64,000 nucleotides of DNA from Entophlyctis helioformis (taxonomy: Eukaryota > Chytridiomycota > Chytridiomycetes > Chytridiales > Chytriomycetaceae): positions 1 through 64,000 of the forward strand of contig JAHLKH010000065.1 of assembly GCA_025526915.1 (NCBI GenBank). The letters run 5' to 3'. How positions within the stretch are numbered: the first letter of the stretch is position 1; every line of letters starts with the position of its first letter. The notes below the pieces were generated by a model. The model saw only the letters and a program-made list of their open reading frames with translations. It had not been told where the DNA came from and made no database searches. The position numbers and the translations under genes were made by a program. Below, in pieces: positions 2,101-63,521 of the stretch.

Positions 2101-4301
2101 CGCAGTGCGGAAGACCCATCTGTGCACAGTTTCCATGTCTCCGATCCGACCCTGGGTGGCTTTGGCGGCGGAAATGGTCCCTTTGCAACAATGGCAGCGT
2201 CGGGCGGCACAGACGGACTGCTTCACGCCACCCCTGCCATGAGCCATGCTGATATGCGGCAGCCCAGCATGGGCATGATGGCGCACGGAGGATTGCATTC
2301 AGGCATGCCCCTGGCCAACATCCCGCAGTCGAACGCGCTCAACCCGATCAACCAGGCGTCGTTCACAACCGTCATTCGCGAGGATCTGTTCAACCTGTTT
2401 TTTGAGTTTGTGTATCCGATCTTCCACCCTCTGCAGCTGCCCGACAGTCAGGCGTACTGGCGCGTGCGTGCACAAACGTCCGTGTTCCTGACCAACGCCA
2501 TGTACTCTACTGCCCTTCGGTTCTCGTCGTTTTTGGATCCGCGGTACCCGCGGCATACGGCTGGCGACCTCTTTTTCTTTGAAGCACGGTCTCTGCTGGA
2601 TGCTGAGCTAGAAGCGCCGACATCTTCGACTGTCTTTGGTCTCATTCTGCTGCACCACTACTCTTACGGTATGTCTCTTGGCCACTGCCCATCCCGCTGT
2701 CTCCGCCTTGGTCGCTGATGAATTGACCACCGCATGTGTATGCCAATGCAGCATCTGCGCGACGGATGCTCGGCAGCACCTACTTTAGCATCTGTATGAA
2801 GCTGTGCATCGAGCTGCGCCTCAACCTGGAGCCAGAGTTGAAAAAGACCAACTGTGCAGGCTCGCCGTACGAGCAAGAGATCAACAGGCGGCTCTGGTGG
2901 ACGTTTTGGATGATGGAAAACTACGGATGTGCACTTGCGCCGCGCAGGCCGACGCTGCAAGTCGGCGAGTGTCTGGTAGCCCTCCCGCGCGCTTGTCGTC
3001 TCAGCGGACCATCCTCGGCCGGGTGCAGCGACCACACCAAACTCAGCATCAAGGTCATGTCATCGACGGATCTGTTCACGCCACCATTGTCGACGTCGAC
3101 CCCTGAAGGATACCTCCTGATGCTCGAAAAACGCTTGCACATGGTCATCCAGCGATCTCCCGACTTGTGCTGCGCGATACCGTCCATGTCCCGCGAAGAC
3201 GAGGCGTACAACCAGATGGTGCTCGATGCTTCACTCAGGGCGTGGTACGACACTCTCCCAGAGCGCATCAAGTCCTCGCAAACGGACACGCTTCCACTCG
3301 ATCCTAGCCTGCCACGTGGGCCGACATGGATGCTCGTGTACATTCGCGTCCTTTACCACTTTTCGTACGTGCTCCTCTATCGGCCCAACGTCATGCACGC
3401 ACTCTCGAATCCAAAGCTGGCGGCGACGCCCGAGTTTGCAAAGTGCCACGATGCTGCGACTGCCTGCACGGGGCTGATGGCGCAGATTGTCAAGCACAAC
3501 CCCGAGTTTCACCATCTGAGCTTCTTCATGGCCTATGTCGCGTTTCACGTGGGATGGATCCATGCGGCCGTTGGACAAGTGCTGTCCGGGTCTGATCTGG
3601 CTGCATCGGCTGTGTCGTGGAAGAGTGTCGACACGCACATGGAGGCTCTTCGGAACCTTGGACGCTATTGGGCCATGCCGACGTATCAGTATGCGCTGCT
3701 GTGGCACTTTAAGCAGACCAAGGACAGTGCTCTGATGCAGCTGCCGCTGTCGCGACTCAGGGAGCTGAATCCGCTGCTGATCTGCCCACATCTGCAGATG
3801 GAAGGATTCCTGATCCCGCAGACGTTGGTGGCACGACTGGCCGGCACTGTCGACGGCAATGCCAATGCCAATGGCTCCAGCGTGTCTGCGCAGTCGGCTG
3901 CCTCTAGGCCGTTTGTGCAGCTGTCGGGGTCGACCTTTTCTGTTGCGCCACAGATGCAGCAGCAGCAACCGCTTCAACAGCAACAGCAACAGCAACATCA
4001 ACAGCAGCAGAAGCACCAGCAGCAACTGAACCAGCAGCAACTGAACCAGCATCAGATGCCGCGCCAACCAAACCGACCGCAGCAACAAAACATGGGATCG
4101 TCGTTCTTTGGTATCGTGCCGATGCCTGCTTCCATGCATGCACCGTCTGCGCAAGCCATGGGCGTGGCTGGTGTGGCTGGCGTGGCTGGCGTGGCTGGCC
4201 AGTCGTCGATTGCAGACCAGCTCGATCTGTTTGGCTCGGGCATGCCGCCTGCAGGATTTGCCGATCTGGCCCAGCTTGCAGCGCAGTTTGCGCCGTTCTG
4301 A
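1036..4301 (+). CDS. Zn2Cys6 fungal-specific transcription factor 1
   Basis: Exons 1036-1236, 1513-2668 and 2752-4301 give 968 residues. The zinc cluster is split by the first, 276-base intron: ACDNCNRK lies before it and KVRCLPAPEGHTSCANCLRL after it, completing six cysteines, followed by a basic linker and a short coiled coil (EYMDTIEDRLASIESLL). A fungal_trans regulatory domain follows (IREDLFNLFFEFVYPIFHP to about residue 730), then a Gln-rich tail near 3955-4060 and four GVA repeats at 4162-4199. The second intron is phase 1 and sits at the position shared by the whole array. An alternative start is the ATG at 1154. By family it is a nuclear DNA-binding regulator; the target is unknown. 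It is the first of five tandem paralogs. Confidence 0.85.
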
Positions 4302-4373
4302 TGTGATACCGATCGCCTCAATAGAGACGTTTTCCACTTGTGTTGAACGTGCCGCGGCCTTGAAACCCTGGAT

Positions 4374-4390
4374 TTCACATTCCCTTTTCC
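4374..4390 (+). promoter_or_regulatory. Shared upstream pyrimidine motif, copy A
   Basis: A TT-CACATTC-CCTTTT-type element lies about 20 bases before the TF2 start codon. A near-identical element precedes TF3. In intergenic spacers of only 109 and 75 bases this is the only evident shared sequence, so it may be core promoter or leader retained from the duplication. The role is inferred. Confidence 0.35.
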
Positions 4391-4410
4391 AAACAACCGC
4401 ACACAACGTC

Positions 4411-6945
4411 ATGCGAGTGAACAACACCTGCGAGAGCTGCATCCGCAAGAAGCGCAAGTGCTCGCGGGACAAGCCCTCCTGCCAGCAGTGCCTGCTCAGC
4501 GGCATCAAGTGCACCTACCAGGCCTTCCGGCCGAGCGGCGGCAGCGGCAGCAACGGCGACGCCCACAGCAACCACCTCGAAACAACCAGCAACTCGTCGG
4601 GCAGCGGCTCGGACCACTCGCCGTCCATGCTGGACCACCCGCACTCGCACCCGCAGGCGGCTGTGCACAGCTACCAGCAAGGCCAGCAAGGCCTGCAAAG
4701 CCTGCAGGACCCGCAGGACCAACAAGACAACCCCCGCAGCATCCACACTGAGCAGCAGCAGCAGCACCAGCAGCATCAGCAGCAAGAGGACCAGCACATG
4801 TGGTCGAGCACAGCCACGGGCGCCGACTTTGCGTTTGCCGCGGCACCAATCACACAAGCCCACGCCCAACCGCTCGACCCGTCGCTGCTGCCCTATCCGC
4901 CGCTGCCATCACAGCTGCACACGGCAACGGCAGCCAGACGCCTGCTGGTCGATGTCGCCGAAGCGCAACGCCAGCAGCGCGAGCGAGAGCAGCAGCAGCG
5001 AGACCAGGACGATGCCGACCTGCTTGGCCTGTTCTCGCTGTGCATCGGACCGCATCTGCTGCTGGTTCCCGACCCGTACTTGAGCGGCATGCTGCGCAAG
5101 AGCATGCTCGCCATGCACTCGATCCGCGCATTCACTTGTGCGATCGCTCCCGCCACAACAAGCAAGACCGCAATGGACGCTCGGGCCCATTATGAGAAGG
5201 CCATAACTCTGATTGGCGACGCTCTGCTCAACCCCAGTCCTGGCTCTGTTATCGGCTTGCTCATGCTGGCCATGGCATCTACACGTAAGTGGCTCACAGC
5301 CTTCCTACGGCCCAGCCTGATGCTAACCCCGACTCGGCTCTGGCACTCTGCAGAGTTGTCCACCGCCCAGCAAGGATCGCAGTTCATGGAGCTTGGCGTT
5401 CAACTCGCTATCCGCATCGGCCTCAATACCGAAGACGGCATCGCCGCACTGGCAAGCAGCGGCGAGTACGAAAAGGACACACTTCGCGCTTTGTTTTGGT
5501 CGATGCTGCAGTTTGAGGTCTTCCTCGTGGTCGGCTTCGAGCTCCCAATCCACATTCAGGACAAGGACATGCTCGTCGGGTTCCCGAGCGATATGTACGC
5601 AAGCAAGCGTGCTCACCCACTGGACAGCAACCTCAAGATGGAGATCGCTGCCATGTCCTGTACAAACTGGGCAGTTCCGTCCCTGCCGAACCGCGGCACG
5701 CTCGCCAACCTGCTCATTATCGAAAAGATCACGATCAAGGTTGCACTGCTCAATGCACAAATCAAGGCAGGCAAGCTGGACGAGCTGGAGGCCCTCCGTG
5801 CACGAGTAGCGCTGGATTCGTCGTTGCGGGCGTGGTATGGAGCACTGCCGCCGTCGATCAAGAGCCATCATGTGAACTTTATGGTTGCCGCATCCACTCC
5901 AATGGGCGTCGATGCATGGCGTCCCCTGTTTGCCATGAGTCTGTATAACTTTGCACGCATCCTGCTGTGGCGCAACGTCTTTGTCGAGAACGTTCTCAGT
6001 TCGCCCGAGCAGGCCACCACGTCACACGCGTTCATGGAGTGCATCCAAGCCGCCAACGACATGGCCAGCACGGTCGTTCTCGCGATTGTCAAGCACAACG
6101 CCTACATGATTGTCAACCCGTTCTTGGCATCGATGACGCTCGTCCATGGACTCGTTCTCCAAACGGCGCTCAAGCTTCCTGCGTCTGCCAACGAGACCAT
6201 TCACAACGCCACATCGCTCAGTATGCTCAAGCAGTGTCTTCATGGCCTTAGCACCAACTGGAAGACGGGGTGCATCGAGCTGGACATTCTGCAGTATCTC
6301 GAGTCGCTGCCGGACGCGGCGTCGATTGTGCGGCTGTTTGAGTTCCTCACGCACACCAAGCGACTGCACAAGCGGCCGCGCATTGATTTCGCCGAGGATT
6401 GGACGTCGGGCAAGAGTCCAGATGTCGACATGAGCACAGCGACGGCAGCTGGCGCACGGCTTGCCGCAGTGGCCGAGACCATGAGTTCCATCAAGAACCC
6501 AGCCGCACAAGCGCAGCAGCAGCAGCAGCAGCAACAACAGCAGAAGCAGCAGTCGTTCCAGAGCAGCGCGTTTGGACACTCGACTGTCACGCCGCTAGGC
6601 AACAGCCCAGATTTCAACTCTCCGAGCGGCCAGCATTCGCCAAGCGACCGGCTGTCGGTGTCTGATACGTCTACGTCCCTGAGCTCGATGATCGGCGGCG
6701 GAAACAGCAATCTGTTTGCGACGGTTGCTTCAGCAATGCCTGCGAATTCGTACGTCTCGATCGGGATCCCCACGCCGCCGTTGCCGTTTGGGTCGCCTGC
6801 TGATGGGTCGGCGATGAGCAGCAGCGGCGTGTCTGACCAGGCGCTTGCGTCGCTGCTGGATGTGGAGTTGAACAGTGGGCTGGGTGGATATAGCAGCGAC
6901 ATCCGCGCACCATCCTCTGACCTGATTGCGGGACTGTTTAGTTGA
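4411..6945 (+). CDS. Zn2Cys6 fungal-specific transcription factor 2
   Basis: Exons 4411-5284 and 5354-6945 give 821 residues. The protein opens directly with the zinc cluster: MRVNNTCESCIRKKRKCSRD, then C-Q-Q-C-L-L-S-G-I-K-C. Next comes a Ser/His/Gln-rich linker (about residues 50-165), the regulatory domain (about 190-640) and a low-complexity Gln/Ser-rich tail. The ATG at 4411 is chosen because homology starts there and because TF3 starts identically. The single intron (69 bases, phase 1) is a multiple of three without an in-frame stop. The gene begins only 109 bases after the previous stop codon. It is the closest paralog of TF3; the two likely arose by the most recent duplication in the array. 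Confidence 0.88.
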   Translation: MRVNNTCESCIRKKRKCSRDKPSCQQCLLSGIKCTYQAFRPSGGSGSNGDAHSNHLETTSNSSGSGSDHSPSMLDHPHSHPQAAVHSYQQGQQGLQSLQDPQDQQDNPRSIHTEQQQQHQQHQQQEDQHMWSSTATGADFAFAAAPITQAHAQPLDPSLLPYPPLPSQLHTATAARRLLVDVAEAQRQQREREQQQRDQDDADLLGLFSLCIGPHLLLVPDPYLSGMLRKSMLAMHSIRAFTCAIAPATTSKTAMDARAHYEKAITLIGDALLNPSPGSVIGLLMLAMASTRKWLTAFLRPSLMLTPTRLWHSAELSTAQQGSQFMELGVQLAIRIGLNTEDGIAALASSGEYEKDTLRALFWSMLQFEVFLVVGFELPIHIQDKDMLVGFPSDMYASKRAHPLDSNLKMEIAAMSCTNWAVPSLPNRGTLANLLIIEKITIKVALLNAQIKAGKLDELEALRARVALDSSLRAWYGALPPSIKSHHVNFMVAASTPMGVDAWRPLFAMSLYNFARILLWRNVFVENVLSSPEQATTSHAFMECIQAANDMASTVVLAIVKHNAYMIVNPFLASMTLVHGLVLQTALKLPASANETIHNATSLSMLKQCLHGLSTNWKTGCIELDILQYLESLPDAASIVRLFEFLTHTKRLHKRPRIDFAEDWTSGKSPDVDMSTATAAGARLAAVAETMSSIKNPAAQAQQQQQQQQQQKQQSFQSSAFGHSTVTPLGNSPDFNSPSGQHSPSDRLSVSDTSTSLSSMIGGGNSNLFATVASAMPANSYVSIGIPTPPLPFGSPADGSAMSSSGVSDQALASLLDVELNSGLGGYSSDIRAPSSDLIAGLFS

Positions 6946-6996
6946 TTGTCATCAGTACTTTTGGTTCAAAAATCGTTAGTTTAACGTCACTTGACT

Positions 6997-7013
6997 TTAC
7001 ACATTCTCTTTTT
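6997..7013 (+). promoter_or_regulatory. Shared upstream pyrimidine motif, copy B
   Basis: This counterpart of the element at 4374-4390 (ACACATTCTCTTTTT) ends seven bases before the TF3 ATG, in a 75-base spacer. Conservation may only reflect recent duplication. Confidence 0.35.
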
Positions 7014-7020
7014 GCACTAC

Positions 7021-9606
7021 ATGAGGGTGAACAACACCTGCGAGAACTGCATCAGGCGCAAGAAGAAGTGCAGCCGCGACCGCCCGGTGTGCACGCAGTG
7101 TCTGCGCATCGGAGGCGTCTGTGTGTATCCGCCGTCCTCTCAGCCGCCGTCTGCGTCGCCCCTCGAAGGCGACCTCAACAGCGACACCGAAGCCACAGCA
7201 ACGTCGGCAGCCTCGGCACCGTCGGCCTTCTCCAACAAGCGGCGGCGACAGCAGGACCAGCCAGAGCAGCACCAGCCAGAGCAGCTGCAGCCACAGCTGC
7301 TGACAGCGGCGCAGACACTGGCACAGCAAACACAGCTCCTGCAGCAGCAGTATCTGCAGTTTCAGCAGCAGCAACAGCAGCTGCTGATGCAGTATGCGTC
7401 CTTGTCGTCGCTTGGACAGCTTGGCGACGGTGCGTCAGGCGGTGTGTCTGACATGGCACTGCCACTGCAAGGACTGTCCACACAGCAGCAGCAAGGCGTC
7501 GGCTTGATGGGGGCATCTGCGCCACCGGTGCACCAGCAGCAGCCATTCCAGCAGCAGCAGCCATACCAACAGCAGCAGCAGCCATTCCAGCAGCCAGTAA
7601 CGTTTGGCGGCGTGGTCAGTGGCTTCGACATGCTCACGGCACTAAACACCACCCCGGCAATGCCGAGCTGGCCGACGGCAGGTGCTGCGCCGATGGCAGC
7701 TGCGCCTGTGCCAGAAGCAAGCTACGAGCCGCAGCAGATGCAGCCGTTTGATGCACTCGCTGTCCAGTCCGTGCAACAGCAGATGCAGCAGATGCAGCAG
7801 GTGCAGCAGGTGCAGCCGTCATTCCCGACATCACATGCCACAACACAGCCGCTTCCACGGACACCAGCGCCATCTGCATCTGCATCGCTCGTGTCGCAGC
7901 GTGCACAACTGCCGGCCGAGATCATCGACATCTTTGTGATCCGCATCCGGCCGCATTTCCTGCATGTCCCGGAGCAGTTTATGCGCAACATGCTCATCAC
8001 ATGCCCGCTGGCTGGCCACGCTGTCGGCGCGTTCATGCTGTGGGTGCTCCAGGATGCCAAGAATGCAGACAAGGCGCAGGAGCACTACGACAAGGCCGTT
8101 TCCATGACGGGGCTGCTTGTGCGCAACCCGACTGTGGAGGTTGTTTTGAGCTTGAACATTCTCAGCTTCACGTCCATGCGTATGTGCATCTGTTTTGGGT
8201 CTTTGTTCTTGTCTGCTGTGCTGCCACTGACTCTTGTACTGGCAGATGGCGGGACGACAAACGAAACGAAGCAGTACTTTACGATGGCAGTCACGGCTGC
8301 GCGGCAACTGAACATGTTCACCGAGGAAGGCATTGCGCGTCTTGGCTCGACCGAGGAAGAACGAGATATTGCGCGCGGCGTCGCTTGGTCAATGTGCATG
8401 TTCTCGCAGGTCACGCTCTGCTCATCAAACGTCAAGCTGGACTTGGACGATGACGACATGCTGATCCGGCTACCGCGCGACAAGGACACGGGCAACCCCG
8501 TTGAGCACCCGCTGGACGACAACTACTCGGTCGAGATTGCGCTCGTCTCTGCACCTGGATGGCAGGTTCCGATCATCTCGTATGGCGGCGTGATTGCCAA
8601 TCTGTTCCTAGCGCACAAGTTTCTTGGCAAAGTCAGCAAGTACACGGACCAGGTCAAGTCGGGCAAGCTGTCTGGCATGGAGGCAACGCGAGTGCGTGCA
8701 TGTCTGGACCAATCGGGCCAGGCATGGCACAGCGCGCTCCCCGACATCATCAAAGCGGTGCCGCAAGAGTTTGCGACTGCAACGATTGCCAACCCGCCCG
8801 CGCGGACGATTGATGCGTGGCGGCCCATCTATCTGCTGACCATGTACCACCACGCTCGCATGCTGCTATGGCGCGACACGTTCATCGGCCATGTGGCTCA
8901 GTCGCCGGCACTTGCAGCCACATCGTATGCGGTCACAACGACGATCGAGTCTTCCGAGATTGTTGCGCAGACGCTCGCACAGCTTGTGATCAAGCACGAC
9001 GCATTCAACTACGTATGCCCATTCATTGGCTTCTCGTGGACGTTTGCGGCGATTGGTCTTGTGGCGATATCCAAGCTGCCGCTCGCTGCCAAGGACACAC
9101 ATCGCACTCTGGCAGCCATCGCCACGCTTCGAGCAGCCATCACGGGACTGTCGCGCACATGGGTCGTTGGCAAGATTGAGCTGCAGTTCATCGACTACCT
9201 CGAGAGCCTCCCCGACGTCACGTCGGTCATCCAATGCTTCGATGCCATCCACCTGCGGCGGCCAACCGTCAATGGACGAGTCAGTTTGCAGCCGCAGCCC
9301 ATCCCAAGCATGGCGCGAGTGGAAGTCATGGACGACGACGAGCCGGCCACTAGCAAGCATGCCAGCCACGATGGCCGCAGCGACGACGGCAGCAGTATCA
9401 GCGGCCGCTCCAAGCACACGCCAGGATCGACTCCGGGGCTGGGATCGCATGTGTCTGTGTCAACAAGCTCTGGCACAGATCTTGGCGAGTATTTTGGGTT
9501 TGACTCGCCGCCGTACCTGCCGAGTGCGACAGACCACTTGCCCTTGCCGTCACACAAGCTCATGCAGCAGCAGCCGCAGCCGCAGCCACACAACCTCTTA
9601 CAATGA
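7021..9606 (+). CDS. Zn2Cys6 fungal-specific transcription factor 3
   Basis: Exons 7021-8179 and 8246-9606 give 839 residues. The N terminus is MRVNNTCENCIRRKKKCSRD, followed by C-T-Q-C-L-R-I-G-G-V-C, a complete zinc binuclear cluster starting at residue 7. A very Gln-rich linker runs to about residue 290, then the regulatory domain (PAEIIDIFVIRIRPHF onward to about 765) and an acidic/Ser-rich tail. The intron (66 bases, phase 1, no in-frame stop) lies where TF2 has its intron. The upstream in-frame codons before 7021 are rejected as start because TF2 begins at the same residue. By family it is a nuclear transcription factor; the targets are unknown. Confidence 0.88.
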   Translation: MRVNNTCENCIRRKKKCSRDRPVCTQCLRIGGVCVYPPSSQPPSASPLEGDLNSDTEATATSAASAPSAFSNKRRRQQDQPEQHQPEQLQPQLLTAAQTLAQQTQLLQQQYLQFQQQQQQLLMQYASLSSLGQLGDGASGGVSDMALPLQGLSTQQQQGVGLMGASAPPVHQQQPFQQQQPYQQQQQPFQQPVTFGGVVSGFDMLTALNTTPAMPSWPTAGAAPMAAAPVPEASYEPQQMQPFDALAVQSVQQQMQQMQQVQQVQPSFPTSHATTQPLPRTPAPSASASLVSQRAQLPAEIIDIFVIRIRPHFLHVPEQFMRNMLITCPLAGHAVGAFMLWVLQDAKNADKAQEHYDKAVSMTGLLVRNPTVEVVLSLNILSFTSMRMCICFGSLFLSAVLPLTLVLADGGTTNETKQYFTMAVTAARQLNMFTEEGIARLGSTEEERDIARGVAWSMCMFSQVTLCSSNVKLDLDDDDMLIRLPRDKDTGNPVEHPLDDNYSVEIALVSAPGWQVPIISYGGVIANLFLAHKFLGKVSKYTDQVKSGKLSGMEATRVRACLDQSGQAWHSALPDIIKAVPQEFATATIANPPARTIDAWRPIYLLTMYHHARMLLWRDTFIGHVAQSPALAATSYAVTTTIESSEIVAQTLAQLVIKHDAFNYVCPFIGFSWTFAAIGLVAISKLPLAAKDTHRTLAAIATLRAAITGLSRTWVVGKIELQFIDYLESLPDVTSVIQCFDAIHLRRPTVNGRVSLQPQPIPSMARVEVMDDDEPATSKHASHDGRSDDGSSISGRSKHTPGSTPGLGSHVSVSTSSGTDLGEYFGFDSPPYLPSATDHLPLPSHKLMQQQPQPQPHNLLQ

Positions 9607-9801
9607 ATACCTCCGCACACTGCCGCACACGTGTTTGAGGATTCCGAAGCAGCATTTTGTTTCATCGTGGCCGTCAACGTTGACAACGCCGGTGTGCACC
9701 ATCCCAAGAGTCCTCAACCAGTAGCAACCAGTAGCCCCGACAAGCAGCAACCAACAGAGGCATCCAACAGCAACCATCGACTAGCAGCAGAAGCACCACA
9801 C

Positions 9802-12488
9802 ATGACAAACGACACCGAGCGCCGCAAGCCAGGCCCACGCCCCGGCTACTCCAAGGTGCTCGAGGAGCGGCTGGAGAAGCTTGAAGCCATCGTCGAGGCG
9901 CTCAACCTCAACCCCGAGCAGCTCGAGGCGGTGCTGGAGGCCAAGTCGTCGGCTGCCTCGTCGCAGCTGCTGGGCAAGGCTGGCGCAGCAGCAGCAGCAG
10001 CCGCAGCGGCAGCCGAGCGAGCGAGTGCGTCGCCCGAGGCATCGGCCGGCACGTCCGCGCAGGCATCGGCACCGGCCTCGGCAAATGGAGGTGCAGGCAT
10101 CGCAGGAGGTGCAGGTACCAAGCGACGCAAAGCCAACGAGGACGACGAGGCGAGCGCGGCGGCGGCCAAGCTGCACGCCGACCAGCTGCAGGCGGCCGCC
10201 GCCGTGTACCGCCAGGACCTGGTCGACCTCTTTGACGAGCAGCTGGGCGGCTTCCTGTTCTTTGTGCGCATCAAGCCGGTGCTGGCGCTGCCGGGCTCGT
10301 CGCCGCTGCTGCTCCACGCCATCTACAGCCTCGCCTCGCTGTTTGCGCCCGACGCCATGGTGCTGCAGCCGTTCAAGACGCAGGAGGAGATGGCCGACTT
10401 TTATTTCGGCCAGGCCTGCCTGCAGCTGCGCGACTGCTTCGTCGTGCCCACCGCCTGCTGCGTGCTGGGCCTCATCCTGCTCATGTACTACTGCGTCCGT
10501 AAGTAGCCTCGCATCCCGCCCCTTGGCCTCCCGTTTCGTCTCCCCCCTTCTGGCGCGGCTCATCGTCGATACGGTGCGCCGGCCATCGCGCATCGCCGTT
10601 TTTCCGCGTCCAATGTGCCCGCCGTTTTGCTGGGCCGGCCAGCCGCCTGCTGCTCCGATTGTGCCGCCTTTTGCGGCCAACGCTGTAGTGCTCCTTGCAG
10701 ATGCCGCCGTGCCCCTTGCTGGTGCTGCCTTGCTCCTTTCTGGCACCGCTTTGCTCCTTGCAGACGCCGCCTTGCTCCTCGAGCAATAGCGTCTTGCTTG
10801 GCAGCGTTCCGTGCGCCGATCCTTTGGCGTCCTATGACGTGCTTGGCGTGCCTCGACGCGATTGGATGACTCACACATTGTGCAACACAGGATCCAAGCG
10901 CGGCCCAGAAGGCTACTACTACTACACCATTGCCATCCGCATGGCGCTGAGCCTCGACCTCAACATCGAAGACTCGATCGTCAAGCACACATCCGACCTG
11001 ATCGAGCAGGACATCCGCCGTGGCATCTGGTGGACATGCTACCAAACCGACAAGTTCATCTCGTATGCACACAACGAGCCGCCGCTCATCAAGGACGAAG
11101 AGTGTCTGGCACGGCTGCCCGACATGGTGCGTCCGCCGTCTGCGGCCCATCCACAGGACTTTGACGACGTGCTGCAGATTGCGCTCATGTCGTCGCCCAG
11201 CTTCTTTGTGCCGGGCATCCGCAACCAGACCATCAACACATCGGCCATTCTGCTCCAGAAGATCCAGGGCCGCGTCGTTGCATACACCATGGAGGCGCAG
11301 ACGGGCAAGTCGGACGTCACGCCGCAGCTCATGTTTAAGCGCGCTGCCATTGAGGCATCTCTGCGCGAGTGGGTCATCCACCTGCCAGACAGCGTGTCGC
11401 TGGTGCGCTCGGCCGACCAGTCCAAGATGGACGTTGCCGACCCGCTCGTCTGGCGCGCTGCCTTTCTGCACGTCATGCACGACTCGGTCGTCGTTGCTCT
11501 GCACCGTCCCATGTTCATCTCGCACATGATGGAGTCGCCTGCCCATGCCATCACCAGCTACGCGGCCCGCGAGTCCTTCAAGGCTGCCCACAGCGCGGCA
11601 ACGCTCCTGGTCGAAATGATCTCAGCCAACCCGCACTTTGACCACGTCCCGCCCTTTATTGGCATCTGCATCTTTGGCTGCGCGCTGGCCCTCCTGCCGC
11701 AGCTCAACACACGCCTGTCTGCTATGGATCTCGCGATTGCCGAGGCAGACATCAACATCTTCCTGCAGGCACTTCAGATCCTGGAGCGGCGGTGGGGCAT
11801 TGGCGAGGTGCAGATCAACATCATCCAGTCCCTGTTCCGCACACGCGATCCAGTCACGGTCGCCCGGAACATCGAGTGCTTCTCCAGCAACAAGGTGCGC
11901 ATCGGGTGCCTGCAGCGGTTCATTGAGGGGTTCATGCACGAGCCCGTGGACGATGCGCTGCGCCGCATGAACGCTGCACTCGACGCTGGCGAGCTTGCGG
12001 CGGACCCGTCTGGTCTTGACGATGCTTCGTGGATGTCGACCATGCAGGGCATGCCGCCGTTCCCGACCGTGTTTGGCACTACGTTTCCGTCGGTGCCCAT
12101 GATGCTGTCGCTCGGAGCAGCAGCAGCAGCCTCGACCGGATCTGTTCCTGTTGGCCCAGTGCCCAATGCCAACTATGGCTCGTGGGCATCTGTCGGCATG
12201 CAGTACGCAAGCAAATCTCCCGGGCCGTCTTTATCTGGACGAAACCGGACAGGCGGCGGCGCGTCGGTGCTGGTCAGCGACATGCTCGACAGCAGTGGCA
12301 TCAGCGCGCTGAGGTTCACGTCGGCCATCACATCCTTGTCTCAGTCGCCACCCGGCTCGTCTGCGTCCTCGTCCTCGCTGTCTTCGTCGGACGGGTCGCC
12401 TTCGGCTGGTCGTCATCATCCGCCTGACAACGGGCCATTGACACCAGAGCTCAGACGACAGCAGCTCGGCTTGCAAGAATCTCGACAG

Positions 12489-12526
<38 letters not shown>

Positions 12527-12815
12527 GCAGCAGCAACAACAACAACAGCAAGAGGCGCTGCGATCTTCTCGGTCGTTTGACGCGCTTGTCAAGACAGAGC
12601 TGCCAGTGACACACACGAGTCTGGCCACTGAACGCAGCGCAAGGATGACGCAGCCATCGCTGTCGCAGTTTGCACTCGGGAGCGCTGGTGTCGGTGGAGG
12701 GGTTGTCGGCGGTATTGGCCACAACGCGATCGAGGAGCTGCTGGGCGGCATGGACCCGTCATACAACGACCTGATTCTAGACATGGACGACCAAAGCATC
12801 ATCTTTACACGTTAG
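9802..12815 (+). CDS. fungal_trans regulatory protein lacking the zinc cluster (TF4)
   Basis: Exons 9802-10498 and 10891-12815 give 873 residues. The protein begins MTNDTERRKPGPRPGYSKVL, the linker that normally follows a Zn2Cys6 domain, then a coiled coil (EERLEKLEAIVEAL). No C-x2-C-x6-C motif is found in any frame between the previous gene and this ATG. The regulatory domain is intact (LVDLFDEQLGGFLFFVRIKPVL, later RRGIWWTCYQTDKFISYAHNEPP). A long CAG/CAA-encoded Gln tract spans 12484-12551. The intron is unusually long (392 bases) but sits at the array's conserved phase-1 position. It may act by dimerising with paralogs, or may have a distant first exon. Confidence 0.8.
10499..10890 (+). 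other. Long intron of TF4 with degenerate internal repeats
   Basis: The intron starts GTAAGT after TACTACTGCGTCC and ends CAACACAG. About 10670-10790 it contains several imperfect copies of a roughly 30-base element built around GCTCCTTGCAGATGCCGCC, each carrying a CAG that could act as an alternative acceptor. Its paralogs have introns of 66-126 bases at this site. Confidence 0.6.
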
Positions 12816-13168
12816 CTCGCCCAGCATGCAAATGAACCACCTGTATCTTTACGTGTGCGTCGACTGCCTTTGGCGACCTGCCCTGGCGGCCTGCCTTGAC
12901 GATCTGCCAGCCCCTGACACCTAGGGCCGTGCACTGTCCGTCGTTCGGCCGAACGGTCCCGAGTGATCGCCAACAAGGACCGCCAGGATTAATTGCAAGC
13001 AATCCACGGATTAACCCGAGGCGCACTCGGCGCTCCACACGGCCGCACGAGGTTGCCCGCACAGGCCGCAACGGAGCACATCGCCACGCCAGCCACGCCC
13101 GCCACGCCAGCCATCGCAGCCCTCGAAGCCGATCCATCGCAGCCATCGCAGCCACGACACGCCAAGCC
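12816..13168. other. Intergenic spacer between TF4 and TF5
   Basis: These 353 bases hold no coding signal that I trust. The 3' half is made of GCCAcGCCAGCCATCGCAGCC-like short repeats leading into the TF5 start, probably 5' leader. Confidence 0.5.
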
Positions 13169-15730
13169 ATGCCATCCGACGAGCATCGCAAGCCGCCGCC
13201 CGAGCGCAAAAAGGTGCGGCAGGCGTGCGACCAGTGCATCCGGCGCCGCTGCAAGTGCGACAGCGAGCGGCCCGTGTGCGAGCCGTGCAGACGCACCGAC
13301 CGGGTGTGCACCTGGACCACCGTGCAGCGCAAGCGCGGCCCGCGCCCCGGCACGACCGGCTCGCATGCGGCTGCTGCCGCCGCCGCCCCTGCTGCCGCCG
13401 CCGCTGCATCGTCAACGTCGCCACCGCCCACATCGTCCAGCCGCACGGCAGCACCCAATGTGGCACACGTGCTGCCCACGGAGCCTGCGCTGTTTCCGCC
13501 GCCGATGCCGCCCGCCTTTGATGCCGTCGGCAGTGGGGCGGCCTATGCCCAGCACCACGGCTCGCCCGGAAGCGGCAGCGGCACCGGAAGCGGCAGTGGT
13601 AGCGGCGCCAACGACGCCTACGACGCGAGCCAGGCGCTCCAGCGGTCGCCCGTGCGCCTCGACCTCATCAACGTCTTCTTCCAGTTCTTCCATCCGTTCT
13701 TCCCCGTCATCCACAAGGAGCGCTTCATCGCAAACCTGGACTCGGCGCATCCGCTGATCCTCAACGCCGTCTACGCAGTCGCAACGCCGTACTTTGACCA
13801 CCTGTTCCGCATCGATCCGTCGTCCAAGCAGACGCTGTTTGCGTCGGGCGATCCTTACTACTACATTGCCCGCTCGCTTGTCAACGAGTATCTTGACGAG
13901 CCCGACACGTACACGGTCGCGGCGCTTGTCATTCTGGCGGCACACTCGTGCATGACCGGCCGTCGTAAGTCTGCGCTGGGTCGGCCCTGCATTGCCTTAC
14001 GTGCACCAACTGACGACTTGCACCGTCTGCACCGTCTGCATCATGTGCACCGTCTGTGTGCCGCCTGCTCGTATCTCCTGGGCAACACAGAGTCTGCAAA
14101 CTGGCAGCTGCTTGGAATGGCGATCCGCACGGCGCACCAGCTGGATCTGCACATCGATCCCTCCATTCTCGGCCGCTTTCCGGACAAGAACGAGCGAGAA
14201 GAGCGCCGCGCGCTGTTTTGGGTGTGCTACGAGCTCGACTGCTACTCGGCGTGCATGGCCGGCATGCCCACCTACATCCACGAGGGCGACTACTCGGTCC
14301 GGCTGCCCGAGTACAGCGATCCGGACCAGACCGGCACGGGCTACGCCGAGACCATTGCCTTCATCGGCGACGGCATGGGGCCTCAGCGCAACGCCACAAA
14401 CGCGCAGGGCCACTTTATCCACCTGCTGCGCATCTACTCGTCCATCATGCGGTTCACGCGGCAGTGGCTCGAGAACAACCTCATGGATCCCCGCATCCCG
14501 CCCAACGGCGACCAGCAGACGCAGCTCGAAGCAAAGCTGCACGACTGGTTCTTCTCGCTGCCGCCGTGGATGCGCGCATACAGCATCCCGACCGAGCAGG
14601 GCAAGACGCCGCACTCGGCCCAGTTCTACCGCGTGTACATTCATATCGTCTACCACACGTCCGTCATTCGGCTGCACCTTCCGTCCATCATCCACCACCT
14701 TTCCTCGGGCAGCACCGCCAATCTCCGCACCAACACCAGCCTCAATGCCGCGACCCAGTCGGCCAACGCCATGACATCCATCCTCAAGGAAATGGCCTTC
14801 CACAACCCGTTCTTCCAGTTCATGGCTCCGTTTGTCGCGTACTGCCTCTCGCTCGGCGGCATGGTCCACGCCCTTTTGCAGCAGCACCAGCACGTCGACA
14901 CACACATCTCGGCCCTGAGCACCATGAGCCGCTTCGTGTTCATGGGTAAGCAGGACGCCGTGATCCTCTCGTCGCTCAAGCTCATGACCACGGACGGCTG
15001 TGTGCGCACAATCCGCAATCGTCTCAAGGCATCTCTCGTCATTGGCCGTATTTGCGGCTCGGCTCGCACACAGCCGTCGCCGCCGTCGTCTGCGTCTGCG
15101 TCTGCACAGCCGTGTGATCAGCAATACCGCAACGGCGTGCTTGTGACGGACGCCATTCTTGCTGCTGCCGCAGCGGCGGCCATGAGCACCACCAACACCG
15201 CCAACACTGCCAACACTGCCAACACCAACGCAAACACCGGCATGTCTATTCTGGGGATGCCGTTCACCATGTCGTCGCTGAGCCCGGCATCCCATAGCGA
15301 TCATACCAGTCCGGGATCGTTTCTGAGCAGCAGCGCATCGGGCACGTCGCCCTTTGTCTCGCAGCTCAGCCCTGGCCCAGGCCCAGCGATCAGTGGTTTC
15401 GCGATGAACGGGCGACCGATCCCGCCGTCTGCGCTGCCTGGCTTCAACCCGACCGTCGCGCTCGGATCGTCCATGTCGTCGCTGACGATCGACCAGCTGG
15501 CTGGCATGATCCATGTGAACATGCCGGCACCAATGCCCAGCGCAGGTATCGACGCAGGCCAGCTGCCCATGACCGTGTCGTCTTTGCCGGACAGCGACAT
15601 GCAGGATGCTGCAAGCACTCCGTCCAACGGCGTGCTCGTCATGAACGAGTCCATGTCGCCGTTTGAAGCCATGCTGACACAGAGCCAAGAAGATGGCACA
15701 GCGCTGCGTGTAAAGGCAGAGACCGCGTAG
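13169..15730 (+). CDS. Zn2Cys6 fungal-specific transcription factor 5
   Basis: Exons 13169-13964 and 14091-15730 give 811 residues. The zinc cluster is near the N terminus: RQACDQCIRRRCKCDSERPVC followed by EPCRRTDRVC, then the KRGPRPGT linker. The regulatory domain begins at SPVRLDLINVFFQFFHPFFP and contains the family signature ERRALFWVCYELDCYSACMAGMP. The tail is Ser/Pro-rich with an Asn-Thr-Ala repeat near 15187-15235. The 126-base phase-1 intron is a multiple of three with no in-frame stop and lies at the array's shared position. The ATG at 13169 gives a normal short N terminus. It is the last of the five tandem regulators. Confidence 0.88.
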   Translation: MPSDEHRKPPPERKKVRQACDQCIRRRCKCDSERPVCEPCRRTDRVCTWTTVQRKRGPRPGTTGSHAAAAAAAPAAAAAASSTSPPPTSSSRTAAPNVAHVLPTEPALFPPPMPPAFDAVGSGAAYAQHHGSPGSGSGTGSGSGSGANDAYDASQALQRSPVRLDLINVFFQFFHPFFPVIHKERFIANLDSAHPLILNAVYAVATPYFDHLFRIDPSSKQTLFASGDPYYYIARSLVNEYLDEPDTYTVAALVILAAHSCMTGRRKSALGRPCIALRAPTDDLHRLHRLHHVHRLCAACSYLLGNTESANWQLLGMAIRTAHQLDLHIDPSILGRFPDKNEREERRALFWVCYELDCYSACMAGMPTYIHEGDYSVRLPEYSDPDQTGTGYAETIAFIGDGMGPQRNATNAQGHFIHLLRIYSSIMRFTRQWLENNLMDPRIPPNGDQQTQLEAKLHDWFFSLPPWMRAYSIPTEQGKTPHSAQFYRVYIHIVYHTSVIRLHLPSIIHHLSSGSTANLRTNTSLNAATQSANAMTSILKEMAFHNPFFQFMAPFVAYCLSLGGMVHALLQQHQHVDTHISALSTMSRFVFMGKQDAVILSSLKLMTTDGCVRTIRNRLKASLVIGRICGSARTQPSPPSSASASAQPCDQQYRNGVLVTDAILAAAAAAAMSTTNTANTANTANTNANTGMSILGMPFTMSSLSPASHSDHTSPGSFLSSSASGTSPFVSQLSPGPGPAISGFAMNGRPIPPSALPGFNPTVALGSSMSSLTIDQLAGMIHVNMPAPMPSAGIDAGQLPMTVSSLPDSDMQDAASTPSNGVLVMNESMSPFEAMLTQSQEDGTALRVKAETA

Positions 15731-21299: not shown

Positions 21300-22520
21300 T
21301 TACTCGAGAGGGTTCTCGACAGACTCCTTGCCTGGGATCGCGAGACCACCGCCAGCCGCGACGCCGCCGTTGCCGCCAGTCTGTCTGCGCTCAAGGGGTT
21401 CTCGACGGACTCCTTGCCTGGGATCGCGAGACCACCGCCAGCCGCGACGCCGCCGTTGCCACCAGTCTGTCTGCGCTCGAGAGGGTTCTCGACAGACTCC
21501 TTGCCTGGGATCGCGAGACCACCGCCAGCCGCGACGCCGCCGTTGCCACCAGTCTGTCTGCGCTCAAGGGGGTTCTCGACGGACTCCTTGCCTGGGATCG
21601 CGAGACCACCGCCAGCCGCGACGCCGCCGTTGCCACCAGTCTGTCTGCGCTCAAGGGGTTCTCGACAGACTCCTTGCCTGGGATCGCGAGACCACCGCCA
21701 GCCGCGACGCCGCCGTTGCCGCCAGTCTGTCTGCGCTCAAGGGGTTCTCGACGGACTCCTTGCCTGGGATCGCGAGACCACCGCCAGCCGCGACGCCGCC
21801 GTTGCCACCAGTCTGTCTGCGCTCGAGAGGGTTCTCGACAGACTCCTTGCCTGGGATCGCGAGACCACCGCCAGCCGCGACGCCGCCGTTGCCGCCAGTC
21901 TGTCTGCGCTCGAGAGGGTTCTCGACAGACTCCTTGCCTGGGATCGCGAGACCACCGCCAGCCGCGACGCCGCCGTTGCCACCAGTCTGTCTGCGCTCGA
22001 GAGGGTTCTCGACAGACTCCTTGCCTGGGATCGCGAGACCACCGCCAGCCGCGACGCCGCCGTTGCCGCCAGTCTGTCTGCGCTCGAGAGGGTTCTCGAC
22101 AGACTCCTTGCCTGGGATCGCGAGACCACCGCCAGCCGCGACGCCGCCGTTGCCGCCAGTCTGTCTGCGCTCAAGGGGGTTCTCGACAGACTCCTTGCCT
22201 GGGATCGCGAGACCACCGCCAGCCGCGACGCCGCCGTTGCCGCCAGTCTGTCTGCGCTCAAGGGGGTTCTCGACAGACTCCTTGCCTGGGATCGCGAGAC
22301 CACCGCCAGCCGCGACGCCGCCGTTGCCGCCAGTCTGTCTGCGCTCAAGGGGGTTCTCGACAGACTCCTTGCCTGGGATCGCGAGACCACCGCCAGCCGC
22401 GACGCCGCCGTTGCCGCCAGTCTGTCTGCGCTCGAGACCGTTGCCGCGAGAGATTGGCGCGGCAGAGGTCGAGGCCAGGAGAGCAACGAAAGCGGCGAGA
22501 AGAGCAAGTCCAGTGCGCAT
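21300..22520 (-). CDS. Secreted tandem-repeat protein with an Arg-Arg (Kex2-type) site in each unit
   Basis: The ATG is at 22520. A signal peptide (MRTGLALLAAFVALLAS, cleavage near TSA-AP) and a short pro-region ending LERR precede 13 near-identical 87-base units at 21303-22430. Each encodes 29 residues beginning QTGGNGGVAAGGG, continuing LAIPGKES and ending VENPLERR. Dibasic ends suit Kex2 cleavage followed by carboxypeptidase trimming, releasing Gly-rich peptides of about 27 residues with N-terminal Gln. Units 6, 5 and 2, counted from low coordinates, are 86 bases, each missing one C in a C run. As written, the frame breaks after the eighth unit and stops at 21651-21653. The original frame meets a TAA at 21300-21302 directly after the last unit, showing that the whole array was once coding. 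A TATA box lies upstream. No family recognised. Confidence 0.7.
21303..22430 (-). repeat. 13-unit, 87-base direct tandem repeat
   Basis: Unit starts on the plus strand fall at 21303, 21390, 21476, 21563, 21650, 21736, 21822, 21909, 21996, 22083, 22170, 22257 and 22344. Ten are 87 bases and three (21390, 21650, 21736) are 86. Variation is confined to a few alternating sites (CTCGAGAGGG or CTCAAGGGGG at the unit start, ACAGAC or ACGGAC, GCCGCC or GCCACC), implying recent unequal exchange or gene conversion. Confidence 0.95.
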
Positions 22521-22586: not shown

Positions 22587-22594
22587 CTTTTATA
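22587..22594 (-). promoter_or_regulatory. TATA box of the Kex2-type repeat gene
   Basis: TATAAAAG reads on the minus strand about 67 bases before the ATG at 22520, in otherwise GC-rich sequence. Housekeeping genes in the window show no such element. Confidence 0.6.
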
Positions 22595-23958: not shown

Positions 23959-24369
23959 TCAAGGAGTGGTGCCGCTCAGTCTCTGTCGGTGGAAGCGCTG
24001 ACAGCGGCAGCAGCAAGCGCGTCTAAACCAACGCGTGGTCGTCCGCCTACTCCTTGGGAAGCTGGAAACCACCACTGCCGCCGCCGTTGGCGAGTGCTGG
24101 TCCGTCGGCGATCTCGGAGCGGCTCGGAGCAGACTCCTTGGGAAGCTGGAAACCACCGCTGCCACCGCCGCCGTTGGCGAGTGCTGGTCCGTCGGCGATT
24201 CGGAGCGGCTCGGAGCAGACTCCTTGGGAAGCTGGAAACCACCGCTGCCACCGCCGCCGTTGGCAAGCGCAGGGGCCACCTGCTTGACGCTATCGTCTGT
24301 GCCAGTAGGGACTGGAGCGGCAGCAACTGTTGCGACAAGGGCCAGGAGAGCGATAAGGATGTTGCGCAT
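23959..24369 (-). CDS. Second secreted Gly-rich repeat protein, frame-shifted paralog
   Basis: The ATG at 24369 begins a signal peptide (MRNILIALLALVATVAAAPVP), then TGTDDSVKQVAPAL and a Gly-rich motif NGGGGSGGFQLPKESAPSRS. Units start (minus-strand ends) at 24051, 24135 and 24221. Spacings are 84 and 86 bases, explained as an 87-base, 29-codon unit with a three-base and a one-base deletion. After the first copy, the one-base loss moves translation into a Ser/Pro/Arg-rich frame ending at 23959. In the original frame a TAG follows PKE of the last copy at 24048-24050, as in the 21300-22520 gene. Shared period, secretion signal and GG..P.KES motif indicate paralogy. It has no Arg-Arg sites. Function unknown. 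Confidence 0.6.
   Translation of the reverse strand: MRNILIALLALVATVAAAPVPTGTDDSVKQVAPALANGGGGSGGFQLPKESAPSRSESPTDQHSPTAAVAAVVSSFPRSLLRAAPRSPTDQHSPTAAAVVVSSFPRSRRTTTRWFRRACCCRCQRFHRQRLSGTTP
24051..24300 (-). repeat. Three imperfect 84-87-base units in the second secreted repeat gene
   Basis: TCCTTGGGAAGCTGGAAACC recurs at 24051, 24135 and 24221 on the plus strand. The copies differ by one missing GCCACC triplet pair element and by ATCTCGG versus ATTCGG. Confidence 0.85.
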
Positions 24370-25178: not shown

Positions 25179-26328
25179 CTATGACCACGAGGGTGGTGTG
25201 GCAGCAGCATCGTTCCATTTGCTGCAGATGCAGTATTTGGTATAGCAGCAGTAACCGTAGTCGGCTTTGCTGGGGCCTGGGCTGCTGTGCAACGTGTGTT
25301 GGATACAGCTCTTGGCTGTAAGTCGTCGGCGACTGGCCAAGTGTTGGCCGCACGCTCCGCAGTGACGGCCGTCGCTCGAAATCGCACCTTCGCCGTCATC
25401 AAACTCGTCGAAGGAACGCTTTCGACGAGCTACCGGAGACGAGCCACGTGCATGGCTGCCTGGCATCATCACGCCGCTTAGCCCAAGGCCGACAAGTTGG
25501 CTACCTGTTGAGTTACTCAATTGAGCCGGCGTGGTAGCCTCGTCGAATCCGGCCTCTATGTGAGCATCCGTGTTGCTGATGCTGCTGATACTGATGATCT
25601 CGCGTTGAACATGCGACGATCCAGTCGACGCCGACGATCTTGACAAGACAGGCGACGACGGCGAGGTTGACGAAACCGACAAGATTGAGGGGGACTCCGG
25701 CAGCCCGTACTGCCCGCTGTAATTGGTCATTGGGCCGGCGGCTGACGACGACGGCGTGGTTGCCCGCGATGAAGGGTAAGAACACGCTCTTGCAGATATC
25801 GTCGTCAATAGCGTTGACGCTCGTGATGGCTGGCTATCTGTCGATGCATACCATGAAGGACACCGCGACACCTTGTCCGATGCCTCGCTCCGAGGCGGCT
25901 TGCTCGCGTGGCGTCGTGCCTGTCCAAACAATGATCCATAGCAATTCCAATCCGTCAGCCAGGCGGCCGGTCATCCAGACACGCTGCAGCCAAGCCACAA
26001 AACAACATGCAAGCAGAGCCGGCACTGCGACAGATGCAGCAGCAAGAGCCAGCCATGCTGATGCTGCTGCTGCTGCCGCCCTTGAGCATAGCCGTAGACG
26101 GGCGATCCACATCATCCGATGCATGACACTTACAGCTGCAATGCAGTCGAGAAGAGCATATTGCCGGAGCTTGTCTCGAGCGTCTCGCAGAAATGCGTCC
26201 GTTCGCGGGGTTTCCACGGCGAGAGTGGTGCGTGGCGGACGGCGGAGGGCTTGTACCAGCGGTACGGTGCGAAGCGGTGCAGCTGATAAAGGGGGTGGCC
26301 CAAGTGCCGTCGTCGCTGTGGTTTGCAT
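25179..26328 (-). CDS. Hypothetical Ser-rich protein with C-terminal cysteines
   Basis: Exons 26134-26328 and 25179-25919 join in phase 0 across a 214-base intron (GTAAGT...CTGAC...GGACAG) to give 311 residues. The first exon encodes MQTTATTALGPPPLSAAPLR and a helix TDAFLRDARDKLRQYALLDC. The second is Ser/Thr-rich, with a basic-acidic patch ARRKRSFDEFDDGEG and a Cys-rich end (HCGACGQ, YCCYTKYCIC). If the intron were kept, a hydrophobic Ala/Val/Leu segment would be inserted in frame for part of its length. I recognise no family. The ATG has a good context (GCGACAATGC). Support is only the open frame and splice signals. Confidence 0.35.
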
Positions 26329-30307: not shown

Positions 30308-33300
30308 TCAGAAACCGCCCATGCCAAACATGGACAGATCTTCAGCAGACTGGCCGGCCTGTTGCTTGTCGTGTTGCTCGCTCCTCGTCTGCCGCGCGCT
30401 CTCCAGACTGATCGCTCCGCGGATATGCGGCCCAATGTGCATGGCCAGATCGGCAGGCAGTCCATGCGCAACCACGCCTGTCGCGTACCAGTCCATCTGC
30501 TGCGGCGCCACATGCGCAGTCGACACAACACGCTTGACCGGATCCACAACCCAAAACACAAGCATCTTGGCATGGCCTGCTCGGGTCGGGTCGGCCAGCC
30601 GGAACGGCTCCTGCCTGTGCTGCCAACTGTTGGGGAACGCAATGCACCTGCCCTCGACGGCATCCATCGCTCCAACGCTCTGCACTCGCATGCTGGCGTC
30701 GTCGTGGAATCCATACACCTCCTCCAGGTAGTCGTACTCGGTCTGATCGTACCGCGTCAGCCATGCCTCAAACGTCGGCGTCTCTGACTGGAACGACAGT
30801 CGCGGCGTGGTGACGTTGTCCATGGCGTAGTAGCAGATGCCCGTGGCAACAATCGGCTCGGTCTGCGATCCCTCGGTGTGCCAGCTGCTGCCGTGATACT
30901 CGGGACTCTCGGGACTCAGATGGATGCTGACCAGCTTGACAACGACTTGCAGGCTGCGGTCGCGCAGGATGACGGGAGTTGGAAGAGCTGCTGGTGGCAG
31001 AAACGAGTCTGGCAGTCGGGGATGCAGAAAGCCCGATGCTTGGTGGTCGCCTGGGTTTCCAGCATCGTCGTCGCGATCGTCCTCGCCCTCGACGTAGCCG
31101 TCAATGATATCCTTTGCTTGTCGATAGCCCTCGTCGTCGTCCTCGCTGGGCAGCTCCGGCATTGTCCGAAGCAGGCATCGCAGTGCATCGCGTGTCGTGT
31201 ACACCTCGCCTGGATTGGTAATGTACGGCACAAGACCGCTGCTGTGCCCAAACAGACTCTCGAACAGCGGCACAAACCGCTCAAAGACCTTGGCGATCGT
31301 CGTGTAGAGCGGCTTGTGCCAGACCGGATGCAGGTTGTTGATGTACGAGTTGATGGACACGGTGCCGTCCTCATGGATATGGAACTCTGACGGCAGCACC
31401 TGCGAAGGCTCCGATGCGGCGTACACGTCATCGTCGAGCTCGTCGAACACGGTCGGTGCGTCTGCCACGGTCTCGGCGGCGCCAAGGATGTCCCATGGCG
31501 GCATGGAGTTGGCCGCGGCGCGATGGATGCAAGCAAGAACCAGAGTGCGGCCGTACGTGAGCGGATACAGCGACGTGCTGACCAGGTCGAGCACCGTGCC
31601 GGACGAGCCTGGATGCCAATCCTTCTTGTAACGGGGGACGTCTTCGAGCACAGCGACTTGGCGGACGAGCGTGTCTCGCAGCGGTTGCGGCAAGGCATCA
31701 TCCGACATGACTGTGCACTTGACGGCTCCAGGCGTGAGTGTCACCACTTCGCCGCTGGCCAGCTCGGCTGTGCGAATGCCGTGCTCGGCAAGATACGCCA
31801 ACTCGCTGAACAGCAGACCGACCGCGCGCTTGGAGAAGCCGCGTTCAGTCGCCTCGGCGTGCCACGTGGCTGCAGTGGCGGCATCCTTGAGCTTGATCCA
31901 CCACTGTGGCTTGGCAAGGACCGAACCAAGCAGACCAAGATACTGGCGCTCCTTGACGGTGAGATGCGGCTGCTCGGCGCTCGGGATGAGGGCTATGGGC
32001 AGATCGATGTTGTACTCGTTTGTCTCGTAGTTGGTGTCGCCCGGCTCGAGTTCTGTGCCAAAGAAGGTGCGCAGGATGGCAATGATGCGTTTCACGACCA
32101 CCGACGAGAGTCTGTGGCTTTCGGCCAGTTGCTGCAGCAGCGACGGCATGCCGATTGCTTGCATCGCGTCTGCCGTTGGGTTCGAGTCGCTGTGCTTGTA
32201 CCACGTCAGCAGACAGTCGACAACTTCGATGGCCTTGCTCAGGCTTGATGACTCGGTGCTACTGCTGCTGCTGCTGAGGAGAAGGAGGAGTTTGTGCATC
32301 GCCGGTGCAATGCCGTGGTGCAGGTATGCTGGAACGAGCGCATCGCTGCCGTTGTTTGGGTCTTGAATCGTCACATGAATGCATCCGAGTGCGGCTTCGG
32401 CCCTTGCGTGGCCAGGAGGGTTGAACGCCGCGATGATGCGACCCACAACAGCGCTGTATGCTACATCCGAAGCTTGCTGGTCGACGCGCAAGAGGATCCG
32501 GCTGACAAGCAACGACAGGGCGGAAAAGAGATCATCCGACTTGCTTGCTTCATCGTTGGCCAGTATCCTTTTCAATGCACCCATAATGCCTGCACTGGCA
32601 AGCTGATCTGCCATCGTGACGCCATCAGATGCGAATATGGTCATGTGCTGATGAAGCAACTCGAGAATGGCCTTGAGATGGTCAGCGTCGGTGATCGATC
32701 TGGTTTACAGGCATTGGTCAGCGGGCAGTCAGCGAGACGATGGAAGATGTGGCATCATCGTACTGGAGCTTCTTGACCGTGGTAGAAAAGAGCTGCAGAT
32801 CGGGGAAGAGTGCCGGAAAGTTGTACATGTTTGCAAACAAGCACCTGCATGCAGCCACGGTGACTTCTCCGTCGTCTTGTTTGGTAAGCACATGCAGCAC
32901 AGCTTCGGCAAACGGCTTGATGACACTCTGTCATTCACAGGTTGTCAGCGTTATGGATCCATGCGTGGCGAGGCAACTCTCCCACGCACTTGGAATGGGT
33001 TTGGTACGCACATTTTCAAGGCCGAGATAGGCACGAAGCCGCAGATTGATCGAGAACAGGATCCTCAAGATGGCGCCTCGGTCTGTTTCGGCAACCAGCG
33101 CAGCGACAACAGTCGGACCGCGTCGGATGGGCCATTTCACTGTAAAAGTGTTGTGGGTTAGCAAGGTTTTCAGTGCCTCGTTGATCTGTCCAAGGATGAC
33201 GATCGGTCAGTACCACAGCAGCAGCATCCCAAGCGGATCTACCAGCAACTGACAGCCATGCGGACTTGGATATCCGTGTCGGCCAGCAGATTCATGAACA

Positions 33301-53373: not shown

Positions 53374-53548
53374 TCTCTATATGCAGCGATACGCAGGACT
53401 GTGCCGTGCTGTTGCGATGGCAAAGATCTCGGGCAAGCGCGAGGCAGCGAGCCAACCGCGACTGTTGGAGATCAAAAACGCGTGCTTGACGCGGCAACAA
53501 ACAGAGCGTCAGAGACTCAGACGGCAGACCAACAAAGCAGCACGGCAA

Positions 53549-63000: not shown

Positions 63001-63521
63001 TTACCTGACGAAGGCGCGATTGCTGGCGCGGTCGGCAACCAGGCGGCCAACGCAGTATGTTGAATGGGCATCGTCACCGAGTTTCTGCTCATAGCTGCTG
63101 CCGATTCTGACCCAGAGCCGGAGCCAGATCTTGCCCGGTTTGCACTCGCACCCGTACTCGCGCGACGGTGTGGATGAGAGGCGTCTCCAATGGCGTCTCG
63201 TGGTGTGAGCGACTTTCGCTTCCCAGTCGTACTTGAGCCTGCCGATGATACGGCTGGATGGCTGGATGGACCAGCGGCGGATGCGGCAGTTGCAGCTGAT
63301 GGGACTGCAGTTGAATCTGATCCAGACCCCGACCCAGAACCAGACCCCGAGACGCCACTGGAAAGAAGGCGGTGGATAGACTCTTCGAGCTGCTCGATGC
63401 GCGTTGCCACGCGCTGGAGGCCTGTGATCTGGGGCCGCGGCAAGGTGTCTCTGGAGTAGACGCACGTTGTGCCGACACGGGCACAAATGGCGCACGGCAC
63501 TTGCTTATTGCACTTTGCCTT
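60045..63521 (-). CDS. Zn2Cys6 transcription factor 6, 5' end not in the assigned exons
   Basis: Exons 62000-63521 and 60045-61795 are in frame; an optional 12-base microexon (61904-61915) lies in the intron between. At least 1,090 residues are encoded. The exon at 63521 opens KAKCNKQVPCAICARVGTTC, the last four cysteines of a zinc cluster, so the first C-x2-C half is on an exon upstream of 63521. I found no clear candidate in the remaining 479 bases. Then follow QRVATRIEQLEESIHRLL as coiled coil and a long Ser-rich linker. The regulatory domain contains REAEREMRRRVWWSLYLMDR. The phase-1 intron after LLAEHSF is at the same site as in the five-gene array. Confidence 0.8.

Follow-up and report, generated by a model that had tools for sequence, protein, structure and literature searches.

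A probable Kex2-processed repeat protein precursor in the chytrid Entophlyctis helioformis

A gene in the 64-kb window—that is, the whole stretch of Entophlyctis helioformis DNA that was analyzed—probably encodes a Kex2-processed repeat protein (KEP) precursor from which many copies of one linear peptide would be released. The published definition of a KEP asks for a signal peptide together with three or more tandem repeats, each 8 residues or longer and none longer than 100, set between KR, KK, RK, or RR sites (PMC7329392, 2020; PMC6339444, 2019). The anatomy of the locus, the chytrid host, the presence of a kexin in its genome, and the agreement with this definition lend good support to the original prediction that an early-diverging fungus encodes a multi-peptide precursor of the Kex2 type.

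Architecture of the Precursor Locus

The precursor gene is encoded on the minus strand, starting from an ATG at 22520 with the N-terminus MRTGLALLAAFVALLASTSAAPISRGNGLERR (Table 1). The signal peptide and the short pro-region ending in RR that had been predicted are both present, the former by its sequence and by a crude charge/hydropathy/cleavage rule of our own, unlike the SignalP used in KEP surveys. They are followed by 13 units arranged head-to-tail and then, as predicted, directly by a stop codon (TAA at 21302–21300, minus strand). RR is found at the same position in 13/13 units and is followed in each of them by QT. The last unit ends in LE-stop, with the stop occupying the position of RR in the other units; the claim that each unit ends in LERR thus fails for the last one. 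Tandem Repeats Finder described the array as 13.1 copies of period 87 with 97% matches and a score of 2116, the top of 62 rows in the window, and the array itself is clearly beyond chance. The TATA box that had been noted upstream of the gene is also there; TATAAAA occurs just twice when both strands of the window are counted, once at this gene.

Searches of the genome itself with the 5′ DNA, the 289-aa frame, a single unit, and the N-terminal 36 residues returned this locus only, and no paralogue. In two protein searches, no annotated protein of E. helioformis came up for the precursor locus, although the model of the neighboring gene was found.

Table 1. Features of the precursor locus and of the neighboring gene (window positions)
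Feature	Position	Strand	Basis
TATA box TATAAAAG, starting 74 bases before the A of the ATG	22587..22594	-	TATAAAA count in window
Signal peptide MRTGLALLAAFVALLASTSA, cleavage predicted after residue 20	22461..22520	-	sequence and crude rule
Pro-region APISRGNGLERR, short, last residues forming the first dibasic site (RR)	22425..22460	-	sequence
Units 1–7, 87 bp apiece, RRQTGGNGGVAAGGGLAIPGKESVENPLE, in frame	21822..22430	-	sequence
Unit 8, 86 bp, in frame as far as VENPL, frame lost thereafter	21736..21821	-	sequence
Unit 9, 86 bp, out of frame as assembled, holding the end of the 289-aa ORF (21651)	21650..21735	-	sequence
Units 10–11, 87 bp each, out of the ATG frame as assembled	21476..21649	-	sequence
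Unit 12, 86 bp	21390..21475	-	sequence
Unit 13, in the ATG frame again, VENPLE-stop with TAA directly after	21300..21389	-	sequence
Gene 2 (context, outside the precursor), signal peptide and Gly-rich repeat units with PALANGGGGSGGFQLPKES core	24047..24369	-	model BC831DRAFT_435914

Frame Breaks in Units 8, 9, and 12

The unit length is 87 bp in 10/13 units and 86 bp in units 8, 9, and 12, each of which is one C short, with four C rather than five in one C run. Consequently, the open frame as assembled is 289 residues long and contains seven complete units between RR sites; beyond unit 7, it comprises unit 8, lacking its last Glu and the following RR, and then a frame-shifted tail. Because the three one-base losses total one codon, unit 13 and the stop codon share the ATG frame once more. 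Thus, the 13 units of 29 codons in the original prediction do lie head-to-tail, but were counted through the breaks, and the suggested number of up to 13 peptide copies would apply only if the breaks are assembly errors; as assembled, the frame covers seven full units and the greater part of unit 8. The losses were found in 3/7 units with the long C run and in 0/6 units with an interrupted run (two-sided Fisher p 0.19), a pattern that hints at consensus error or slippage but does not decide the matter. We infer consensus error in C runs as the origin of all three breaks. If they are instead real, the predicted frame is still one that falls under the definition of a KEP, with seven 27-residue stretches between RR sites as assembled and a signal peptide under the crude rule.

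Coding Evidence

Losses aside, the 13 units differ at four nucleotide positions, all of them third positions at which the variation is synonymous in the sense frame (4/4), with 27% of all possible single changes in the unit, and 33% of transitions, expected to be synonymous. One antisense frame likewise shows 4/4 synonymous sites, but with a codon score of -0.53 bits per codon. The score of the unit in the sense frame, +0.11 bits per codon, was the best of the six frames by a small margin, with a different antisense frame coming second at +0.08 bits per codon and 0/4 variable sites synonymous. The training set for the codon score was 1235 codons from nine segments of the window with Pfam support, and both the unit and the leader (+0.01 bits per codon) fall below the values of these segments (0.33–0.79), which makes codon usage alone weak evidence. 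Starts resembling a signal peptide under the crude rule were found at 13 of the 2405 ATGs in the window, including those of the precursor gene and the neighboring gene 2, and at 49 of 23534 in Markov sequence.

Neighboring Gene 2 and Genomic Context

Gene 2 belongs to a family of three copies with a repeat period of 29 codons. In the window copy, the frame of the first unit is broken by one base, and the public model of this copy (E. helioformis, 100 aa) omits part of the repeat; in our reading, the annotation placed an intron there. A protein search with the paralogue on C6 returned this model and no other protein. Its two paralogues, at C6:134234-134656 (four units) and C340:5425-5760 (three units), are both open and encode secreted Gly-rich proteins with no dibasic sites. 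The three copies lie in a segmental duplication that extends in the window from 23795 to at least 28290 and is common to contigs C6 and C340, with approximately 92–95% identity over the main blocks and no match at 25670–25872; the precursor gene lies outside it. In an alignment of the three copies (1967 columns), conservation is highest over the promoter and signal peptide.

The signal peptides of the precursor gene and gene 2 share a modest resemblance, with their likeness reached by 0/2000 simple shuffles and 18/5000 block shuffles, and with a score of 47 as compared with 13–32 for 11 other signal-peptide-like starts in the window. The resemblance between the unit cores is weak, being reached by 91/2000 shuffles, and BLASTP of the first 117 residues of the precursor against a gene 2 paralogue gave no alignment.

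Elsewhere in the window, several domains of the Zn(2)-Cys(6) and fungal-specific transcription factor types are found at both ends (2727–15730 and 60045–63722), and a long DUF4246 protein is encoded in a single open frame at 30308–32704 on the minus strand.

Host and Processing Machinery

By taxonomy, E. helioformis belongs to the Chytridiales within the Chytridiomycota. A CH_2 sperm-protein domain encoded in the window at 53350–54117 (plus strand) fits a flagellated fungus. The JEL805 genome is credited to Amses et al. 2022 (PMC11797018).

The host genome encodes a kexin, represented by a 343-aa ORF on contig C407 that is part of the gene; it has Peptidase_S8 and P_proprotein domains and aligns over 321 residues with yeast kexin (1ot5; E 3.1e-94). 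Its P_proprotein match spans one TGA, probably within an intron. A second P_proprotein match is present on contig C294, where no ORF of 300 aa was found. Three contigs carry matches to Peptidase_S10, the serine carboxypeptidase family to which Kex1 belongs, with internal stops in one case, and DPPIV_N matches were likewise found on three contigs. In view of the cleavage preference of kexin, LERR-Q is a plausible kexin site.

Predicted Peptide and Its Release

If the gene is expressed, the signal peptide would direct the precursor into the secretory pathway, where kexin would cut after every LERR and a Kex1-like carboxypeptidase would strip both Arg residues. The product would be a linear, Gly-rich peptide of 27 residues, QTGGNGGVAAGGGLAIPGKESVENPLE, made in many copies, on which an N-terminal pyroglutamate may form. 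The final copy, ending in LE-stop, needs no trimming to equal the trimmed copies, which argues that the mature C-terminus would be NPLE. With a pI of 4.5 and a GRAVY of -0.26, the predicted peptide is acidic and mildly hydrophilic. Its calculated average mass is about 2479.7 Da, or 17 Da lower with pyroglutamate, and it contains no Tyr, no Cys, and no STE13 signature.

Comparison With Known Precursors

KEPs are widespread in fungi, although the KEP peptides detected so far are few (PMC9769878). In the survey of PMC7329392 (Table 1), 178 KEPs were counted in Chytridiomycota, with 14 of 19 strains positive, and most KEP types were found to be limited to one genus; the KEP peptides of chytrids have been described as having larger sizes (PMC6339444). 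For a chytrid KEP, the lack of known relatives is therefore what one would expect. The present gene shares with KEPs the signal peptide and the tandem repeats, at least three in number and shorter than 100 residues, between dibasic sites, but differs in that no homologue of the peptide was found and in that this assembly interrupts the frame where unit 8 ends. Literature searches returned no report on Kex2 tandem-repeat peptide precursors in chytrids and, for Kex2 secreted peptides in Chytridiomycota from 2019 on, PMC6339444 only. The name Entophlyctis is absent from the main text of PMC7329392.

No homologue was found at E <= 1 for either the 289-aa frame (7995 candidates sharing most words, with lengths of approximately 159–505 aa) or the first 117 residues (7989 such candidates, with lengths of approximately 64–205 aa), in searches that scored only candidates sharing most words and may thus miss distant relatives. 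The earlier statement that no known family could be recognized therefore stands for the sequence, but not for the kind of gene, KEPs being defined and known from chytrids in the surveys cited above. Among Pfam families, DUF5431 and ABCA11_C scored above the whole-protein cut-off with no single stretch passing, and were taken as repeat artefacts; a DUF1317 match below the cut-off was rejected on the same grounds.

Ascomycete alpha-type pheromone precursors resemble the present precursor in having a signal peptide, a pro-region, and tandem copies split by dibasic sites, but here RR is followed by QT rather than by the XA/XP signature of STE13, and the 27 residues of the peptide lie outside the range of 9–24 residues given for alpha-type pheromones (PMC6339444). 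No Pfam match to MF_alpha was found in the precursor, and none to STE2 (PF02116) in the genome at E <= 0.1, in a search that had no positive control and in which introns may hide a gene. Dikaritin and ustiloxin-type RiPP precursors also combine a signal peptide with Kex2-separated repeats. The core peptide of dikaritins contains Tyr, whereas the unit here has none, and the genome gave no match to UstYa (DUF3328, PF11807) at E <= 0.1, again with no positive control. Given the lack of an STE13 signature and of Tyr, and the null results for STE2 and UstYa under these conditions, the gene was not filed as a pheromone or dikaritin precursor; the pheromone and RiPP-like assignments suggested at the outset gained no support.

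A further comparison is with Rep1 of Ustilago maydis, which gives rise to 37-residue peptides controlling hyphal wall properties (PMC6339444). Repeated peptides released by Kex2 (a release that is predicted here), a similar length class, and the lack of an STE13 signature are common to both; the predicted peptide here differs in being acidic and mildly hydrophilic. A role as an abundant secreted or surface-associated peptide, used in the manner of Rep1 and not as a mating pheromone, may be proposed tentatively. That the 27-mer is a diffusible signal of the chytrid, in mating or in communication between zoospore and thallus, is quite improbable; if true, it would place a pheromone-like peptide in a phylum whose pheromone chemistry falls within what has been termed largely unknown (PMC6339444).

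Alternative Explanations

Were the one-base losses real, the locus would be a KEP gene in decay, whose output could not go beyond the first seven or eight peptides and a useless tail, or which is no longer expressed at all. The short length of three of the 13 units fits such decay, as does the occurrence of the short form on two unit backgrounds (units 8 and 12 on one, unit 9 on another), a pattern that repeated slippage could produce; furthermore, gene 2 also has a one-base break in the window while its paralogues elsewhere stay open. The confinement of all three losses to the same C run, weak as it is at the p value given above, speaks against decay, and the complete lack of non-synonymous change in any unit, losses aside, would be unusual in a decaying gene, though recent expansion of the array could explain it as well. 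On balance, decay is considered unlikely. Another reading, according to which the Gly-rich repeat product is secreted and functions whole in the wall or matrix, with RR merely part of the repeat, draws on the open gene 2 paralogues, whose secreted, Gly-rich repeat products lack dibasic sites and have a core of similar appearance (NGG..GG...P.KES), and on the likeness of the signal peptides beyond that of shuffled sequences. However, RR is present in all 13 units and missing exactly at the end, where it would be needless, and the similarity of the cores is weak against shuffles and yields no BLASTP alignment, so that an uncut product seems distinctly doubtful.

A non-coding minisatellite, whose reading frame would be open merely through high G+C content and a period divisible by three, would account for the several frames on both strands that are open over much of the array, for its company of 61 further tandem-repeat rows in the window, and for the close score of the second-best frame. 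However, the signal peptide, the TATA box, the position of the stop codon, the synonymous-only variation, and the best codon score of the six all point to one frame, and a minisatellite is highly improbable.

Significance

In Coprinopsis, the KEP peptides detected were linear and minimally modified, kep knock-outs showed no detectable phenotype, and KEPs have been expressed in a laboratory strain of Pichia (PMC9769878); none of the detected KEP peptides named in the literature examined is from a chytrid. As a KEP precursor, the gene offers a clean test case, with a single predicted mass, a precursor that holds the same peptide many times over, a likely promoter, and a host outside the group of chytrids that kill frogs. 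On sequence alone, it represents an unstudied example of a catalogued class with a new peptide, and detection of this peptide would directly show Kex2-type multi-peptide processing in Chytridiomycota.
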